Shown here one piece after another: positions 2,056 to 19,666 of a stretch of DNA of 32,040 nucleotides. Below the pieces are notes generated by a model. It did not search any database. It saw only the letters and a program-made list of their open reading frames with translations, and was not told the DNA's origin. Position 1 is the stretch's first letter. Every line of letters starts with the position of its first letter. Location: positions 1 through 32,040 of the forward strand of contig VBAW01000029.1 of the NCBI GenBank assembly GCA_005888635.1, written 5' to 3'. A program made the translations under genes and the position numbers. The DNA comes from Candidatus Bathyarchaeota archaeon. GTDB lineage: Archaea > Thermoproteota > Bathyarchaeia > 40CM-2-53-6.

Positions 2056-2124
2056 ACTGTTCTGTTTCAAACGCGACAGGCGCAGAACAAGCCCTAAACA
2101 GGAATCGGGGCAGGCGATTTGAGA
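2056..2124 (+). repeat. Repeat D1 (copy 1 of a 69-bp tandem-type pair)
   Basis: This block begins ACTGTTCTGTTT, contains CAGAACAAGCCC and ends with AGGCGATTT. The same elements occur in the same order and total length at 2362-2430. The two copies start 306 bp apart. On the minus strand both read as a similar peptide (PRF, then ACS, then a TEQ motif), so they could be decayed coding repeats. Confidence 0.7.
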
Positions 2125-2361
2125 TCACGCAGTTTGCGCGTTGACCTGCACGTTGAGCTACACGATGTCGAAAACAGCCGACCAACTGATTCTGCGCCCT
2201 GTTTCGCAAGACTCGCCCGGTTCAGTTTCAACTGGTGAGACCCCTCGTCAGAAAATGTCAAAAGTAGTTGCTTCCCGCGACACAAAACCCGACTCTGCGA
2301 GGGAATTAACAAAGAGTAATCTTTTCTCGGACCCGGCTCTTCGGAGCCTGGGAACCAGCAG

Positions 2362-2430
2362 ACTGTTCTGTTTGAAAGTGAACAAGCCCAGAACAAGCCC
2401 CGATCGGAAATCGGGGGAAGGCGATTTTAG
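2362..2430 (+). repeat. Repeat D2 (copy 2 of the pair), containing a hairpin
   Basis: Second copy of the block at 2056-2124, again ACTGTTCTGTTT, CAGAACAAGCCC and AGGCGATTT. This copy additionally contains a perfect inverted repeat: CCCCGAT at 2398-2404 pairs with ATCGGGG at 2410-2416 across a five-base loop. In copy 1 only a GCCC/GGGC pairing remains at that place. Confidence 0.7.
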
Positions 2431-2474
2431 GTGGCGGATCTTTCATGCTTAGAAACGACTAAAATCGTGTTTTT
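2422..2474 (+). terminator. Terminator-like stem followed by a T-run
   Basis: CGATTTTAG at 2422-2430 is the exact inverse complement of CTAAAATCG at 2459-2467, and the second arm is followed by TGTTTTT. The geometry resembles a stem plus U-tract at an RNA 3' end. The 28-base loop is long for a terminator, so a structured RNA element is equally possible. Confidence 0.4.
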
Positions 2475-2623
2475 CGGATCAGGCGTCCAAGCACATTCTG
2501 CGCATGGAACTCGGATCGTCGCCTGGAAAGGTTCCGGCTGGCGGAGGCCCTCCCGAAAAATAGTGGGGGGGAGGTCTCAAATGTCCCGTGACGCGAGAGT
2601 GGTCTGCTGCGGTTGAGCGGTTT

Positions 2624-3001
2624 CTAGCCGATGTAGCTTGGGATAGTAGAAGACTGGAAGGATTTGAGAACTCTCAGCAAGGTCTCCTCGGCCTTGCTCC
2701 GGTCAGAGTCGTGTTCCTTTAGAGCCGAGGTCCAGAGATGGTAGACCATTCCTCCTTGCTCGGCAGCTTGGAAGAAGCCAAGCTCCTCGAGAGATCTTGT
2801 CAATGATAGTAGTCGATCAGAGAGGACTGAAAGACCCGCGGTTATCGTCCAGTCACCTGTCTGGTCAAGCATGACATGTATGATTCCATCGGAGAAAGTT
2901 AGCGATATGCTTCCGCCAGGCTTGAGCGAGGAGTCGACCAGGCCCGCCATCGACAATGGATCGTAGGCTCCGTGACCATTGAGGGAAGCGTTCTCTGTCA
3001 T
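2624..3001 (-). CDS. Hypothetical protein, 125 aa
   Basis: I do not recognise this family. The protein is soluble-looking, without membrane segments or a signal peptide. The middle contains alternating hydrophobic strands (SISLTFSDGIIHVML, then DWTITAGL) followed by amphipathic helices with many Leu and Glu. Such a strand-then-helix pattern could be a small alpha/beta domain. The start is an ATG at 3001, and the gene diverges from the Dph2 gene, leaving 132 bp between them in which both promoters must lie. No cysteine or histidine clusters are seen. Codon use and the regular hydrophobic pattern support a real gene, but the function is unknown. Confidence 0.55.
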   Translation of the reverse strand: MTENASLNGHGAYDPLSMAGLVDSSLKPGGSISLTFSDGIIHVMLDQTGDWTITAGLSVLSDRLLSLTRSLEELGFFQAAEQGGMVYHLWTSALKEHDSDRSKAEETLLRVLKSFQSSTIPSYIG

Positions 3002-13846: not shown

Positions 13847-14281
13847 ATGTTTGATGATCTAGTCGAGTACGTCCGAGAGAACTATTCTCGAGCCTCAAAG
13901 ATTGTAGAGCTGGGAGTAGGCAGCCGAATAGACGTCGCGGAAAATATCAAGAAACATCTTCCACTAACCGAGGTTCTTGTCACGGACAAGGATGAAGCAT
14001 GGGTCCGGAAGCATATCACGAGTCACGTCCGTGCTGTAGCTGATGACGTGATGTTTCCGCAGACGCCGATCTATCAGAATGCGTCGCTAGTCTACTCGAT
14101 CCATCCACCCTTCGAGATTGTAGAGCCGATGGTTGCGCTTGCCGGGAGGATAGGGGCCGATCTTCTAGTTGTGCCGAGGTCCGATGAGCAAGAAATGTTT
14201 CATCATGATGGCTGGCGGAAGCTTGTCCGGAATGGAAGGACGCTCGGTTGGCTCAGAGACTTCAGAAAGGAACAGCATTAG
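13847..14281 (+). CDS. UPF0146 family protein
   Basis: A 144-aa archaeal protein of the UPF0146 family, function unknown. The fold looks like a reduced SAM-methyltransferase Rossmann core: KIVELGVGSRIDVAENIKKHLP, then VLVTDKDE and VRAVADDVMFPQTPIYQNASLVYSIHPPFEI, and ADLLVVPRSDEQE. The Gly-rich loop is LGVGS instead of GxGxG, and no catalytic motif is seen. It has the usual family length. The ATG at 13847 is 15 bases downstream of the PEP synthase stop, so it is probably the last gene of the rpl10e-ppsA unit. Confidence 0.88.
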   Translation: MFDDLVEYVRENYSRASKIVELGVGSRIDVAENIKKHLPLTEVLVTDKDEAWVRKHITSHVRAVADDVMFPQTPIYQNASLVYSIHPPFEIVEPMVALAGRIGADLLVVPRSDEQEMFHHDGWRKLVRNGRTLGWLRDFRKEQH

Positions 14282-14305
14282 CCTAGAACGGGATATAGAA
14301 TCATC

Positions 14306-14478
14306 CGGTTTTCTTCGTCGCGAGACTGGCCTTCATACCTTGTTTTTCTAGCTAGCCTATTACTAGCCGGATCTTGACAGGGACCGAGCAAGAACCCCGT
14401 TCGCCTCTTCTCAAGCGTCATGCGGATTTTATCATTGACTCGGACCCTCAGGCGTTTTCCAGGCGACTTCCTTGGCAC
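14306..14478 (+). repeat. Dispersed repeat R, copy 1
   Basis: Starts near CGGTTTTCTTCGTCGCGAGAC, contains TTCATACCTTGTTTTTCTA, GGATCTTGACAGGGACC and CTCGGACCC, and ends with CAGGCGACTTCCTTGG. The GTCGCG box and the AGGCGA box are 144 bases apart. Copies 2 and 3 carry the same boxes in the same order at 142 and 143 bases. Confidence 0.65.
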
Positions 14479-14548
14479 CCTCAGGACCCTACCAAGTTCG
14501 CCCGAGTCCATGTGCTGCCCTAGGGACTCTGCTGAGACTCTCGATCCG

Positions 14549-14845
14549 CTAAACGATAGAACTATGGTTCTTGTTGTTGATCTCTGCCGCCGAACCTTTC
14601 CAAGTGTTCTCAACCAGCTCCACAACATCCGCCAGATGAGCACCCAGCTCTCCGAGCCGCTTCCCCGTCTCAGGATCTTCCTCGCCGAAGAAAGAGCTGA
14701 GCCTGCCGAGAATAACCATACACTTTCTAATCGTCGCGACCTCGTATCGTATCTGTTCGCCGACCGCCATGTCCCAGAGGATGGCCCTCCGCTTTACGAT
14801 AACCTCTGAAGCCTCAGCCTCAGAATCTCCCTCTGTCTCTAACAT
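14549..14845 (-). CDS. Small acidic hypothetical protein, 98 aa
   Basis: I do not recognise this protein. It begins MLETEGDSEAEASEVIVKRR, an acidic N-terminus, followed by helical segments (RYEVATIRKCMVILGRLSSFF and then GKRLGELGAHLADVVELVENT) and a polar tail. No membrane or metal-binding features. The long helices separated by a DPETGK turn suggest a helical hairpin. The gene lies between copies 1 and 2 of the dispersed repeat and runs against its neighbours. The start is an ATG at 14845. The regular helical pattern supports a real gene; the function is unknown. Confidence 0.5.
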   Translation of the reverse strand: MLETEGDSEAEASEVIVKRRAILWDMAVGEQIRYEVATIRKCMVILGRLSSFFGEEDPETGKRLGELGAHLADVVELVENTWKGSAAEINNKNHSSIV

Positions 14846-14889
14846 GCTCGCTGAATCGGAGCCGGTCCGTGTTTAGAATCCGTGTAACT

Positions 14890-15123
14890 CTATCGCGGAT
14901 TCCAGAGTGACAACGCTGACCCGAGACTTCGATGTTCTCTGTCGCGGGAGTAGCGCGCATATTTTTTTTCTACGCCTCCGATCCGTAGCACGATCTTAAC
15001 AGGCTCGTAGCAAAACGCACTATCGCCGGCTATTGTTGTCTGGCCGATTTTAGCATCGACATAGACCCCTATGCTGTTTTCTAGGCGATTCCAAAAGGCG
15101 TTTTGCAGGGGACTATCAGGCCA
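14890..15123 (-). pseudogene. Start-less open segment inside repeat copy 2
   Basis: On the minus strand this segment is open for 77 codons, with no start codon, and reads like protein. It includes NRLENSIGVYVDAKIG, then PVKIVLRIGG and EKKYARYSRDRE. Copies 1 and 3 of the repeat carry pieces of the same peptide (RLEN then a stop in copy 1; VRILLAGDGREE and SRDAE in copy 3), interrupted by small indels and stops. This suggests the repeat may descend from a coding element. No family is recognised. Confidence 0.3.
14931..15100 (+). repeat. Dispersed repeat R, copy 2
   Basis: Contains TGTTCTCTGTCGCGGGAGTAG, GCGCATATTTTTTTTCTACG, CGATCTTAACAGGCTC, CGATTTTAGCATCGACATAG followed by ACCCC, and TAGGCGATTCCAAAAGGC. 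Boxes and spacing match copies 1 (14306) and 3 (19082). The flanking sequence at 14846-14930 and 15101-15200 shows nothing else recognisable. Confidence 0.65.
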
Positions 15124-15203
15124 TTAAGCGCCTTCGAGACGTTCTCGTCGGTACGGATTCTGGATGGTCTTTCGATTCGATTTGAGGGCTGAGAAATCGA
15201 AAT

Positions 15204-15215
15204 ATTCATGTGAAT
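15204..15215 (+). promoter_or_regulatory. Inverted repeat upstream of the antitoxin gene
   Basis: ATTCA-TG-TGAAT lies 13 bases before the ATG at 15229 and directly after an AT-rich GAAATATTC stretch that could be the TATA region. Its position suits autoregulation by the antitoxin. Confidence 0.3.
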
Positions 15216-15228
15216 GCACTTGTGTTGC

Positions 15229-15600
15229 ATGGCCCGCAAGACTCTCACAATATCCGAGAAAGCCTACAACGCGCTCGCACGAATGAAGTCTAAAGATGAA
15301 TCATTCACCAAGGTCATCCTCAGACTGGCGCAAAGGAAGAGCAAAGGTAACCTGCTCGACTACGTCAGATCTTTTCCCCCTGACAATGAGCTGGCTGATC
15401 GGATTGAGGAGGTCCTAGAGAAAAGAGGGTCCATCCGGATCAGAGCCTCCAGCCGCCCCCGAGAGGTTGCTGAGGAGAAAGGAGTCAAGGCCGGAGAGCT
15501 TGTCAATGTAGACATTCGTAAAACCCGTAAGAGCGTCTTCGGGGGGGCTAGAGGAATCGGACCCTTCACTGTCAAGGATGAGATGAAAGACCACGACTAG
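15229..15600 (+). CDS. VapB-like (DUF217/UPF0330-type) antitoxin, apparently orphan
   Basis: A 123-aa protein starting MARKTLTISEKAYNALARMK, with DESFTKVILRL at residues 25-35. This is the ribbon-helix-helix-like N-terminus typical of archaeal DUF217/UPF0330 VapB antitoxins. Classical members end near residue 75; this one has about 50 more residues (REVAEEKGVKAGELVNVDIRK) that look like an AbrB-type or DNA-binding beta segment. An upstream ATG at 15214 would add only MHLCC and is less likely. Such antitoxins normally precede a PIN-domain toxin, but the next gene is on the opposite strand and is not a PIN protein, so the partner is missing or elsewhere. Confidence 0.7.
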   Translation: MARKTLTISEKAYNALARMKSKDESFTKVILRLAQRKSKGNLLDYVRSFPPDNELADRIEEVLEKRGSIRIRASSRPREVAEEKGVKAGELVNVDIRKTRKSVFGGARGIGPFTVKDEMKDHD

Positions 15601-15630
15601 ATATGTTTTGGACGCTTACGCCTATCTCCG

Positions 15631-15936
15631 CTAAATCCCTAGTTCTAATCGAAGAAAATCTTTGACACCATCCCTCCCAGTTGCCTTAAGCCAGATAGGC
15701 CCAAGATCACGCTGCAATTCTAGGGTTAGTGTGAGGAAGGGGCAGCAGAGCTGTTCCAGAGTAGCCCACTCCGACAATGCTGTGAAAAGCGACCGGTCGT
15801 TCGGGAAGCGAAACCCATAGCCGTCCGGTAGCTCCGTAATTTCAAGATGTTTCGGGAACAACTCTTTCGCTAAGATGTCGTGTCGTTTTCTCTGTTCTTG
15901 GTCTAGGGCTGACAGGTTGCAAGAAAAGGCGTCCAC
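15631..15936 (-). CDS. Conserved hypothetical protein with LCCPF motif
   Basis: A 101-aa soluble protein. It opens FSCNLSALDQEQRKRHDILAK, continues with ELPDGYGFRFPNDRSLFTALSEW, and then shows the striking EQLCCPFLTLTLEL, ending with a conserved-looking GRDGVKDFL. The vicinal Cys-Cys-Pro-Phe plus the early Cys suggests thiol or metal chemistry, as seen in small proteins near metal- or arsenic-handling genes, but no such genes are visible here. The start is a GTG at 15936. The sequence looks like a member of a family shared with bacteria, so transfer is possible; the family name is not known to me. Confidence 0.6.
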   Translation of the reverse strand: MDAFSCNLSALDQEQRKRHDILAKELFPKHLEITELPDGYGFRFPNDRSLFTALSEWATLEQLCCPFLTLTLELQRDLGPIWLKATGRDGVKDFLRLELGI

Positions 15937-16093
15937 TGCACTTCAGACAATCAGCGACTTTTCCGAGTAGATAAACAACGGAGTTCCTGCACAGTAACTT
16001 GCTTACGCTATAGTTAGTCACCTTCGCAATAGTTTCATTCTAGAATTTGTCCCACTCTCCCACTCTTCTACTTCGAACCACACACCAAGCTCT

Positions 16094-16264
16094 ATGCAAA
16101 GCCTCGACTGCAAGGTCTTCTGCCGAACCTGCCAGGAACCAACGTACCGCGAACTCCGATACCGATCCGACTTCCAGTTCGTAGGCAGACTACTAGTATG
16201 CCAGAACTGTGGCGAGACAATCTTCGAACCGGTCGGGTCCGGGACGGCGTGCCAAGACTGTTGA
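16094..16264 (+). CDS. Small zinc-ribbon protein, 56 aa
   Basis: A short gene easily missed by length filters. The protein begins MQSLDCKVFCRTCQEPTYRE and has seven cysteines at residues 6, 10, 13, 36, 39, 53 and 56. They form three CxxC knuckles (FCRTC, VCQNC, ACQDC), the last at the very C-terminus. Two CxxC pairs suffice for one structural zinc, and the third could make a second site with Cys6. An AT-rich GCTATAGTTA lies about 85 bases upstream. It may act as a nucleic-acid-binding or adaptor protein; this is inference. It converges on the winged-helix membrane regulator gene. Confidence 0.55.
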   Translation: MQSLDCKVFCRTCQEPTYRELRYRSDFQFVGRLLVCQNCGETIFEPVGSGTACQDC

Positions 16265-16367
16265 CAAGCCTACAAGCAATGTGGCTACTGGACCTACGAG
16301 AACCTCTCGAAGAGACCGGCAGTGAGCGCAAGCGGGACGATCGCGTCAAGAAACGCTCTAAGAATTA

Positions 16368-16814
16368 TCACAAGGGTCTCAGCCGCCAGGCTCGATAGGT
16401 CTCAGACCAGAATATCGCCACAGTGAATCCTCCGAAGATGAACGCTACGATATTATGAGTTGAGAAATCGGGAGGGTAGAGAATAGGGTAGAGAGCGAGC
16501 ATTACCGTGAACATTGCGGAAAAGAAAAGATGTCTAGGTAGTAGGAAGCCCAAGACGCCGACAAAGTTCTGTAAGACACCCACCTCCACCTGTTCAGTGA
16601 GATGATACTCGCCTGTTGAGTCCTTCTCCACCAGCCCTAGTGATCGCAGTTTCTCCAGATGATGTAGCGCAACGCTGGGGCTGCTCATTCCCAGAGCACG
16701 TTGTACAGACCTTACTCCGATTGGTTCATTCCTTGTCTTTAGAAGGTGCCAGTAGACGCGTAGGGTGAGTCCCTTCAGCTCAGACTCTATGATCCTGTCG
16801 CGGTCTTCGGTCAA
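16368..16814 (-). CDS. Membrane-anchored winged-helix transcriptional regulator
   Basis: A 148-aa protein with an ArsR/MarR-like winged helix at about residues 10-75. SVQRALGMSSPSVALHHLEKL is the helix-turn-helix and LVEKDSTGEYHLTE is the wing. Two hydrophobic helices follow (about 95-113 and 121-137) with a short basic tail. The DNA-binding domain would face the cytoplasm while the helices fix the protein in the membrane, so it may sense a signal at or outside the membrane. It diverges from the beta-propeller gene, with about 240 bp between them, and could control it. No metal-binding cysteines are present, so metal sensing is not indicated. The ATG at 16814 gives the complete domain. Confidence 0.75.
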   Translation of the reverse strand: MTEDRDRIIESELKGLTLRVYWHLLKTRNEPIGVRSVQRALGMSSPSVALHHLEKLRSLGLVEKDSTGEYHLTEQVEVGVLQNFVGVLGFLLPRHLFFSAMFTVMLALYPILYPPDFSTHNIVAFIFGGFTVAIFWSETYRAWRLRPL

Positions 16815-17049
16815 AAGCCGTCTTCAGGAAAGAGAATAGCGTCAGATCAATACAAGCTTGCTTGTTTGCAGAAGTGTTTTGATTTGTGAACACCCCGTTC
16901 TAAACACTGGCCTTAAGGTCCTCCGCCTCGTACACCAAGTGCATGCAGCCGTCAGCAGACCAGAGACTGAATCAGAATCTACATTCTGGTCAATATGGTC
17001 GCCAGGTTATGCGAGTCGCATCGCACTGGGACGAGAGGAGGATGCGGCT

Positions 17050-19023
17050 GTGAAGGTTGGCTCCAAAACCCGGACTGTCTTCGGGCTGACACTGGGAATC
17101 ATCGCCGGACTCGCGCTAATACTCCTTCCCGGAATAATGGTCATGTACACTCACCTACCCAATCCCAACGCTACTGACCAGCATGTCATGGTCCCCTTCA
17201 CATCCTATCAGGAGTTGCACAGCTTCATTCTCACAAAGAGCTGCAACAGCACCGAAGTTCGCAACCTCTACAATCCCACTCCCGCTCCGGTAATCCTGAA
17301 CACGAACACGAACGGTCTCAACCCTGGCGGGTTCACCGGCACTGTTTCCACCATTGCCACAAGTGGAACCTCCACGGGTTCAATATCAACGAGCGCAACT
17401 CCCAGTCACTCTGAAACAAACGCTCAGGTAGCGGGCGTCGATGAGCTTGACACCGTAAAGAACGACGGCAGCTACATCTACACGGTAACCAATAACACCG
17501 TCGCGATCGTCCTCGCCTACCCAGTCACCGAAGCAAAATTGCTGGCCCACGTATCCGTGAACGGTACGCTCCAAGGAATTTTCGTCGACGGCAACAGGCT
17601 AGTTGTTGTCAGTCAGCAGTACCAGCAGTATCCTCTACCATACACTGGTACCGTACAACCTGCAATGGGAGCTTCCATCGCCGTCTATCCAATATTCCTC
17701 AACTATCCCCAGACCACTTCTCTATCGATCTTCGACATTTCTAACCATGCCAGTCCAGTGTTGACAACTACTCTCGTAGTAAATGGGACTCTCGCGGGGG
17801 CGCGGCTAATTGGGGACTATGCTTACCTGGTGGCGACGCAACCGGTCTACTGCACGGGTCCAATTGTGCTTCCGGTCAATGTGGTAGACGGGCGCATGGT
17901 GACAATGGGGATTGCGTCAGTCTATCACTCTGACATCGCTGATGTAGCTAACAGTTTCACTACGGTTGTTGGTATCAACGTAACCGAAGCCAACCCTACT
18001 CCAGCAGCCAAGATCTTCCTCATCGGGACGAGCAGTAACATCTACGTCTCGCTTCACCAGATCTATCTTACTCAGCCGATCTGGAGTCAGGTCGAGCAGA
18101 CTGCTGTGCATCGCATCAGTATTGATGGTGCAAGCATCAGCTATCAGGCGACGGGTACTGTGTCGGGCCATGTTCTGAACCAGTTTTCCATGGACGAGTA
18201 CAACGGCAACTTCCGCATTGCCACAACCGGCTATAGCTTCAACCAAGTAGCCTCGACGGGAGGCGTTGCGTCTACCTACGTGCAGCAAACCAACCTCTAC
18301 GTCTTAGACAGCGGCCTCCACATAATCGGAAGACTCGAAGGACTCTCGCCCGGCGAAATGTTCTACGCGGCCCGATTCATGGGCGACAGAGCCTACCTGG
18401 TCACTTTTCAGAGAATGGACCCGTTGTTCGTCATCGGTCTGCAAGACCCCACCCAGCCAAAGGTCTTGGGCCAGCTCAACATCCCTGGAGTCTCTGACTA
18501 TCTGCAGCCCTACGATGAGACTCACTTGATTGGATTCGGAAAATCTTCGACGAACGTTACCTGGGAGAACGCTGCACTGTTCCAGGGTCTCAAGCTCAGC
18601 CTCTTCGACGTCACAGACCCGAGTCATCCTATTGATACAAGCGACTATTTGGTCGGAGATCGGGGTAGTGATTCTCCAGCGTTGACGGATCACAAGTCGG
18701 TGCTTTTTGATAGGTCCCTTAACCTGCTGGTAATACCTCTGACGATTGCGCAGGCTCAACCAAGTACAACTTGCACATGGTGCTATAATCCTCTTGTCTG
18801 GCAGGGAGCCTACGTGTTCAACGTCACCGTTCAAGACGGAATCGTCTTCCGCGGCGGAATAACACACCTCGCCACCGGTCAGCTTCCAAGCTGGAACAAC
18901 AGCGGCTTCTTCGTTACCCGCGCTCTCTATATCGGCAGCGTACTCTACACGATAAGCAACAACACGGTCAAGATGAACAGTCTATCCGATCTCACAGAAC
19001 TCAACTCCGTAAACCTAGCCTAA
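17050..19023 (+). CDS. Secreted, membrane-anchored beta-propeller domain protein
   Basis: A protein of about 657 aa. From the GTG at 17050 it begins VKVGSKTRTVFGLTLGIIAG, a basic start plus a hydrophobic signal anchor. A Thr/Ser-rich linker (GTVSTIATSGTSTGSI) and the hallmark ETNAQVAGVDELDTVKNDG with YIYTVTNNTV follow; these mark the start of the archaeal/bacterial 'beta propeller domain' family (Pfam Beta_propel). Repeated strands such as LSIFDISNHASPVL and LSLFDVTDPSHPI are propeller blades. An upstream GTG/TTG in the same frame (from 16858) would add 64 residues that do not look coding. It probably lies on the outer face of the membrane; ligand unknown. It is divergent from the membrane-anchored winged-helix regulator. 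Confidence 0.82.
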   Translation: MKVGSKTRTVFGLTLGIIAGLALILLPGIMVMYTHLPNPNATDQHVMVPFTSYQELHSFILTKSCNSTEVRNLYNPTPAPVILNTNTNGLNPGGFTGTVSTIATSGTSTGSISTSATPSHSETNAQVAGVDELDTVKNDGSYIYTVTNNTVAIVLAYPVTEAKLLAHVSVNGTLQGIFVDGNRLVVVSQQYQQYPLPYTGTVQPAMGASIAVYPIFLNYPQTTSLSIFDISNHASPVLTTTLVVNGTLAGARLIGDYAYLVATQPVYCTGPIVLPVNVVDGRMVTMGIASVYHSDIADVANSFTTVVGINVTEANPTPAAKIFLIGTSSNIYVSLHQIYLTQPIWSQVEQTAVHRISIDGASISYQATGTVSGHVLNQFSMDEYNGNFRIATTGYSFNQVASTGGVASTYVQQTNLYVLDSGLHIIGRLEGLSPGEMFYAARFMGDRAYLVTFQRMDPLFVIGLQDPTQPKVLGQLNIPGVSDYLQPYDETHLIGFGKSSTNVTWENAALFQGLKLSLFDVTDPSHPIDTSDYLVGDRGSDSPALTDHKSVLFDRSLNLLVIPLTIAQAQPSTTCTWCYNPLVWQGAYVFNVTVQDGIVFRGGITHLATGQLPSWNNSGFFVTRALYIGSVLYTISNNTVKMNSLSDLTELNSVNLA

Positions 19024-19355
19024 GAACTTCGAGAGCCTAGATAGAACCTTCGGCCAAGCGTTCGCTCAGATTCAGAGAAGGCGGTTCTGCGTCGCGAGAC
19101 TAGCACGCATACCTTATTCTTCTCGACCGTCGCCGGCTAACAGGATCCTAACACGGACCCATCAACATTTCCCTATTACAGATCACTGGTCTCAACTGAC
19201 ATTAACATCGTAATGGACCCCAAGCCGTTTCCAAGGCGATTCCAAGGCAGAATCAGGTCGCTGACCTCTACTATCTGCAATCATGGGACATGGATTGAAA
19301 ATTACGACTCTGCATCCAGAGGAGTTCCCAAAAACATGACGCTTCGTTTCGAGAC
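19024..19355. other. Gene-poor stretch containing repeat copy 3
   Basis: Apart from the dispersed repeat at 19082-19251 this stretch holds nothing recognisable. A weak open frame beginning at 19213 lies mostly within the repeat and has no protein-like pattern. Confidence 0.4.
19082..19251 (+). repeat. Dispersed repeat R, copy 3
   Basis: Contains CGGTTCTGCGTCGCGAGACTAG, CACGCATACCTTATTCTTCT, CTAACAGGATCCTAACACGG, AACATCGTAATGGACCCC and CCAAGGCGATTCCAAGGC. GTCGCG to AGGCGA is 143 bases. It lies between the beta-propeller gene and the SIR2-like gene. Confidence 0.65.
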
Positions 19356-19370
19356 TCAATTGCAATTGAG
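19355..19370. repeat. Perfect 16-bp palindrome
   Basis: CTCAATTGCAATTGAG is identical to its reverse complement. It sits at the 3' end of a broken minus-strand reading frame and about 300 bp upstream of the SIR2-like gene. It could be a protein-binding site. Confidence 0.5.
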
Positions 19371-19478
19371 ATTTCTTGTATGTATTCCGTTGTCTTGTAG
19401 TTTGATTGCTATTTCTTGTTCCATTCGTGAGGGATTGGCGTGTAGTCGTTCGCGCCAGTCGCTCCGCTGACTCGACAT
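19356..19478 (-). pseudogene. 5' fragment of a protein gene, possibly nuclease-like
   Basis: From an ATG at 19478 the minus strand reads 40 codons: MSSQRSDWRERLHANPSRME, then QEIAIKLQDNGIHTRN, and a stop at 19356. The N-terminal pattern (Arg/Trp-rich start, SRMEQEIAIKL, DNGI) resembles the opening of small endonuclease domains in which an early Glu is catalytic, but this is a weak resemblance. The frame stops inside the palindrome at 19355-19370, and no continuation is obvious beyond it, so the gene looks truncated. Confidence 0.3.
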
Positions 19479-19666
19479 CTATGGGGTTGAGCTATCGTTC
19501 AGCTATTGCTCAGACACGAGAACGAAACTGTTAATCACAGCTAGCCTTCTCGCAGCTTGAAGAAGAGCATCGTCGAGAGACTAGCGAAGATGACGAACCG
19601 GTGTACGTTTCCTTACTGTCTCTTAGGAAGACACGTGCTGAAGAGTGAGAGTTTCCGCTAGTGCTG

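Follow-up and report, generated by a model that had tools for sequence, protein, structure and literature searches.

In enterobacteria, the BIME/REP and RIB repeats are short and extragenic, occur in more than 10-100 copies per genome, and are arranged in composite or tandem form, and RIBs in particular have been described at the 3' ends of transcription units, with termination roles having been proposed (PMC2817692). Other small, dispersed, non-coding, and intergenic sequences are the prokaryotic miniature inverted-repeat transposable elements (MITEs) and the RUP and SPRITE-type repeats of pneumococci, SPRITE having been named a terminator-like element (PMC10969869). Among archaea, transcription termination involves a U-tract plus aCPSF1 (PMC8716108). 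Here, we describe a family of repeats, R, with three copies in a stretch of 32,040 nucleotides from a Candidatus Bathyarchaeota archaeon (contig VBAW01000029.1, analysed as a whole and hereafter called the window). R is specific to a lineage and belongs, as one subfamily, to a superfamily of intergenic repeats (~180-300 bp) that extends through a genus of soil Bathyarchaeia, and that this superfamily is real, non-coding, and intergenic is, in our estimation, close to certain.

In kind, these archaeal repeats are like the bacterial extragenic repeat families (BIME/RIB, RUP, and SPRITE); where tested, they fall outside the definitions of both MITE and REP. Whereas a 20-40-bp imperfect palindrome makes up the REP unit, R is without a conserved inverted structure, and the archaeal repeats measure 180-300 bp and belong to a genus in which no Y1/RAYT transposase was found; the likeness is one of kind, and no relation in sequence is claimed. 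Terminal inverted repeats, the defining feature of MITEs, are missing from the archaeal repeats. With the U-tract terminators read by aCPSF1 there are in common an oligo-T stretch, no conserved hairpin, and a plausible distance past stop codons, although ordinary terminators of this type are not 180-300-bp repeat families, and a terminator role for the archaeal repeats is putative. Integron attC sites offer a parallel in their fixed orientation directly behind genes and their changing downstream neighbours, but the archaeal repeats have no conserved single-strand fold (RNA parameters, either strand) and their switch points are dispersed, and no integron integrase came to light, though no search aimed at one was made. 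To our knowledge, few accounts exist of archaeal intergenic repeat families this large and this numerous beyond the Sulfolobales and haloarchaea. The repeats matched nothing in the databases searched, and the part of the literature covered by our search held no report of such repeats for Bathyarchaeia. Within the genus, they are a concrete marker by which rearrangements can be followed and the binning of soil metagenome genomes checked.

Family R and the wider superfamily

A preliminary description of this DNA had reported three R copies with a GTCGCG box and an AGGCGA box at nearly fixed spacing, and the sequence bears this out, the two boxes starting at 14317 and 14461 in copy 1, at 14941 and 15083 in copy 2, and at 19091 and 19234 in copy 3 (spacings of 144, 142, and 143, respectively). 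Pairwise local scores of the three copies were 319, 337, and 325, as against means of 131-141 for dinucleotide shuffles (standard deviation ~16; top of 1000 shuffles 201-208), which places them 11-12 standard deviations above the shuffles (z = 10.9-12.1) and speaks for a real family. Moreover, unguided repeat finding also groups both boxes (families D1 and D2). The copies, as located with a sequence-only profile, and their adjoining parts are the following.

14278..14308, + strand: weak 5' block of copy 1 (TTAGCCTAGAACGGGATATAGAATCATCCGG), overlapping the TAG stop of the UPF0146 gene
14309..14486, + strand: copy 1, family R (R1 profile E 1.2e-37 in the window), with GTCGCG at 14317, a run of five T (T5) at 14343-14347, and AGGCGAC at 14461
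14933..15120, + strand: copy 2, family R (sequence-only profile span 14933-15103), in a divergent gap as an exception; a GGCGATTCC-like stretch is duplicated towards the 3' end
19082..19259, + strand: copy 3, family R, group A (sequence-only profile), 60 nt past the beta-propeller gene
19260..19382, + strand: group-A 3' tail of copy 3 (ATCTGCAATCATGGGACATGGATTGAAA), with a second degenerate box (GCTTCGTTTCGAGACTCA) at 19340-19357

Copy 1 starts 30 nt past the stop of the UPF0146 gene, and the weaker 5' block (TTAGCCTAGAAC...) adds ~35 bases upstream of the R core; it is likewise found in front of the core where several of the other copies follow unrelated genes. Owing to a small duplication in its 3' part, copy 2 truly ends at TCAGG (15116-15120), past the end of the profile span. 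As for copy 3, its tail can be aligned with 11 other group-A/D copies, with high-scoring segment pairs reaching +123, and its nearest relative, G014:C5, has the same 3' tail. In sequence, the second box in this tail is similar to the beginning of a further, GGTAAC-type element (see below), and the R2 profile scores over the tail at chance level only.

The preliminary description would have given the family up if the genome held no further copies and the alignments scored no better than shuffles. A search of the 2.18-Mb source genome (G000) with a sequence-only profile built from 12 copies gave 15 full or near-full R copies at E < 1e-24, 12 of them outside the window, so the family stands. Statements on G000 as a whole derive from profile and pattern searches and from the stretches around their matches. 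With copy 3 as the query, blastn returned eight further genome matches at E < 1e-7, and a profile search of related archaeal genomes, as had been proposed, gave an R match (E <= 0.1) in 11 of the 18 genomes of the genus. The length of the R core is nearly constant, with most full copies measuring 176-183 bp despite ~30% of positions differing, and two R copies are cut by contig ends (C68 and C78). The preliminary description was right in taking the family as real, old, and dispersed, and the family is non-coding. G018, which belongs to another genus of the same family, gave weak matches, and a pattern scan of named genomes found matches only in soil metagenome-assembled genomes of Bathyarchaeota/Crenarchaeota (13_1_40CM_3_52_10, BA_12, BA_7, and BA_24). 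A scan of viral contigs gave zero matches, and a viral origin was rejected.

Gene ends without R showed other sequences with the same start. Besides R (178 bp), there are as subfamilies a 185-bp R relative (e.g., L053, L058, and L061), S3 (~240 bp), and a GGTAAC type, with further ones in outgroup species, and the 5' box TTnTGyGTCGCGAG is common to them. Searched as the pattern TTNTGYGTCGCGAG, the box gave 81 matches in 17 of the 18 genus genomes against 2 for the reversed control, and 0 in 20 other genomes of the order. With the S3 profile, copies were found in all 18 genus genomes, at least 51 of them in the source genome, these counts being lower bounds (112 candidates scored per genome). 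Tandem pairs, ~60 bases apart, are common, G000 and the sister species G010 included, and one S3 pair occupies a convergent gap of the window between a methyltransferase gene (1239-1988, + strand) and an unknown gene (2624-3001, - strand).

2059..2304, - strand: S3 element with box TTTTGTGTCGCGGG (R2 profile E 5.6e-55 in the window)
2367..2606, - strand: second, more diverged S3 element (R2 profile E 1.6e-19), in tandem 5' of the first with ~60 nt between them

An S3 element is also found at the end of the methyltransferase gene in G010, there in the other orientation. This second pair in the window (2059-2606), the wider superfamily, and the post-stop position of the repeats (see below) are all new beyond the preliminary description.

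Both R and S3 have a T-tract 20-40 nt past the box. T5 occurs in the 20-44 nt window in 62% of the R copies (n = 29) and 73% of the S3 copies (n = 45), its frequency elsewhere in the elements being mostly near zero (S3 also has 0.47 at 100-124), whereas shuffles would give at most 0.01. A loose 3' motif, CAGGsN6-9rGGCG, whose regular expression was chosen after examples had been inspected, occurs in 38% of R, 12% of S3, and 58% of 12 outgroup copies (reversed controls, 0), and S3 copies terminate in a GCCCnGATTnnGGATCnGGGC palindrome.

Some strong R or S3 matches (G014:C5, C22, and C73; G006:C76, C116, C145, and C186; G008:C11; G003:C6 and C70) sit on short contigs of genomes that otherwise have few or only weak matches. 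These matches in G003, G006, G008, and G014 may be mis-binned DNA, perhaps from a species near G000.

Location behind genes and turnover of the elements

Among the 39 R copies with a neighbouring gene, the upstream gene runs in the direction of the element in 33, and 20 of those 33 copies begin 18-76 nt past the stop codon (gene calls are our own, by codon score and uncurated, and gene names were read from protein sequences). When gaps of at least 250 nt were compared in stretches of G000 and G010, divergent gaps were rarer with an element (5/61) than without (25/69; P = 1.4e-4), and convergent ones were commoner (23/61 versus 11/69; P = 0.006). R had been thought to be restricted to accessory, gene-poor DNA, but outside the window its copies also follow the S24e (ribosomal protein), Alba, and FKBP genes.

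At such gene ends, the element present differs from species to species. The UPF0146 gene is followed by R in G000, by R with only ~66 nt left in G010, and by the 185-bp type in G004, while at the Alba gene end four species have R, G016 has an S3-like copy, and G005 has a diverged box. Similarly, at the S24e gene end G000 has R and G016 has the 185-bp type, and the FKBP gene end carries R in G000 and G010 and the GGTAAC type in G009 and G001. In most outgroup genomes, no element lies directly behind any of these four genes. The same gene ends with different sequence in related species amount to a natural experiment on the spread of intergenic repeats and on the question of their being selfish or serving as transcript ends.

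Moreover, two elements look chimeric. L028, of the Alba series, is like its relatives for the first ~45 bases and group A from there on, and L045 switches near position 80-92; from their sequences, both look like recombinants of two subfamilies. On a larger scale, there are pairs of loci that have the upstream gene and the whole element in common and lose homology at the 3' end of the element (L040/L055, L040/L042, and L053/L058), and others in which the downstream side alone is common (L041/L048 and L023/L038). A ~480-bp one-gene block behind an element end is present in G001 and missing from G009. Many copies occupy the same place in G000 and G010, and one convergent gap with both flanks kept holds one S3 in G000 and two S3 in opposite orientation in G010.

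Explanations for the gene-end repeats

As a working principle, we take termination plus recombination-driven spread, to which we give roughly even chances. The element would be a modular, recombining gene-end (3'-flank) repeat, acting at the DNA level and also, without a structure of its own, as the end of a transcript. In the manner of archaeal U-tract terminators, its T-tract would end transcription of the upstream gene, so that the element would be tolerated or useful at gene ends, and copies would be spread and exchanged as elements recombine with one another, by ectopic exchange or conversion, or through the action of some recombinase. In favour of this reading are the shared box and the T-tract of R and S3, the position behind stop codons, the rarity of elements in divergent gaps, the different subfamilies at the same gene ends, and the chimeric copies. 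Both the termination and the agent of spread are what we infer. A further step, in which the superfamily would consist of exchangeable gene-end modules, with the 5' box as the junction for swapping whole 3' flanks (terminator, sometimes the next gene) by a dedicated recombination process and with gene-order change in the genus driven by it, strikes us as improbable.

A number of observations weigh against termination and recombination-driven spread. S3 has no strand bias towards the upstream gene (20 + versus 12 -), and at one site its orientation is flipped between the sister species G000 and G010, because of which not every copy can terminate the same gene. Copy 3 of the window has no T5, and in a set of outgroup copies (L180, L183-L185, L188-L190, L193, L200-L202, and L204) the box is followed by a C-run/G-run stretch (such as CCCCCCCTTTTGGGGGAGG), perhaps a hairpin version, and by no T-tract. 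Within one subfamily, T-tracts may be conserved by common descent alone, and the avoidance of promoter gaps is equally expected from selection against harmful insertions of a selfish element. As for recombination, of 27 ends of G000/G010 homology blocks, 6 lie within elements versus ~12% expected (P = 0.09), and with that value an enrichment of breakpoints at elements is suggestive only and unproved.

The preliminary description had offered non-autonomous mobile elements as one reading, and this is loosely possible. Its fuller form, that of MITE-like transposable elements moved by a host or extinct transposase without need of terminal inverted repeats, with the location behind genes reflecting harmless insertion sites, is one that we rate as doubtful though worth keeping in view. 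It would account for the copy number, the lineage-specific expansion of subfamilies, the tandem pairs, and the swaps that leave different subfamilies at the same gene ends. However, the best end-to-end inverted match lay at shuffle level (P = 0.50), and the proposed inspection for flanking target-site duplications found, at no offset, more matching flanks than in shuffled pairings (some insertion mechanisms produce no such duplication). In a search limited to the Y1 family, the Y1 transposase (PF01797) was found in 0 of the 18 genus genomes and in 5 control genomes. Nor was a clean filled/empty site pair found, and both the many copies at the same place in G000 and G010 and the strong bias of R towards the strand of its upstream gene sit poorly with insertion of this kind. 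Recombination could instead be the purpose of the element, as a platform that joins gene cassettes or blocks with an effect like that of integron attC or of rearrangement hot spots. The pairs that lose homology at the 3' end of the element, those alike on the downstream side alone, the one-gene block of G001, and the differing order among G000, G004, and G010 of the one-gene blocks beside copies 1 and 2 all point this way; still, we think such a platform unlikely, given that there is no attC-like fold, that the switch points are scattered (element end, ~45, ~66, and ~80-92) rather than at one base, that breakpoint enrichment is as weak as given above, and that no recombinase was identified (the transposase search covered the Y1 family).

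Repeated non-coding RNAs and decayed pieces of one coding element, the other readings first put forward, both fared badly. Structured RNA genes would suit the fixed length, the conserved blocks, and the terminal palindrome of S3, but RNAalifold with 12 and with 30 R copies gave, on both strands, energies near zero and 3 pairs, none of them compensatory, and no consensus fold emerged. In fact, folding z for 30 R copies averaged 0.1 and -0.26, with no excess over shuffles, and for 25 S3 copies it was -0.17 and -0.73, the low alifold energies of S3 being not better than those of shuffles. A search of Rfam gave nothing above the gathering score and a tRNA search gave no match, and we consider RNA genes very unlikely. 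To a decayed protein-coding element we attach hardly any credence: although L003 and L006 are open over much of their length in one frame, no frame is kept across the R copies, 1-2-base indels are common and each frame is broken in most copies, and no such gene was found adjoining them. A different reading is that the elements are bound by a protein that organises the chromosome or acts in replication, their copies having spread for that reason. The box contains the palindrome TCGCGA, and it is short, highly conserved, genus-restricted, and common to subfamilies that otherwise cannot be aligned, all as binding sites would have it; yet each element has a single box and ~100-150 more conserved bases without evident purpose, and this explanation, too, seems to us a long shot.

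Minor features around the copies

A resemblance of the group-A tail (...GGGACATGGATTGAAA) to a CRISPR repeat was set aside, as no array follows it and none of 39 loci has a 20-mer that recurs at intervals of 40-100 bases. In five copies (L021, L022, L029, L047, and L059), a second shared non-coding block, made up of a T-run and a CCCCCGGGGG palindrome (GTGAAGGAGTTTTTTT...CCCCCGGGGGG), lies ~140 bp upstream of the element. Around copies 1 and 2 of the window (14530-16315) are one-gene blocks, namely a 98-amino-acid gene, a VapB antitoxin gene, and a 101-amino-acid gene of an unknown family, and their order differs in G004 and G010. Beyond the tail of copy 3, a ~148-bp stretch (19383-19530, - strand) is 84-91% identical in other loci; going by its sequence (MSSQRSDWRERLHANPSRMEQEIAIKLQDNG...), it seems to be the beginning of a small endonuclease-like gene that has been truncated, and a longer relative is found in L027.

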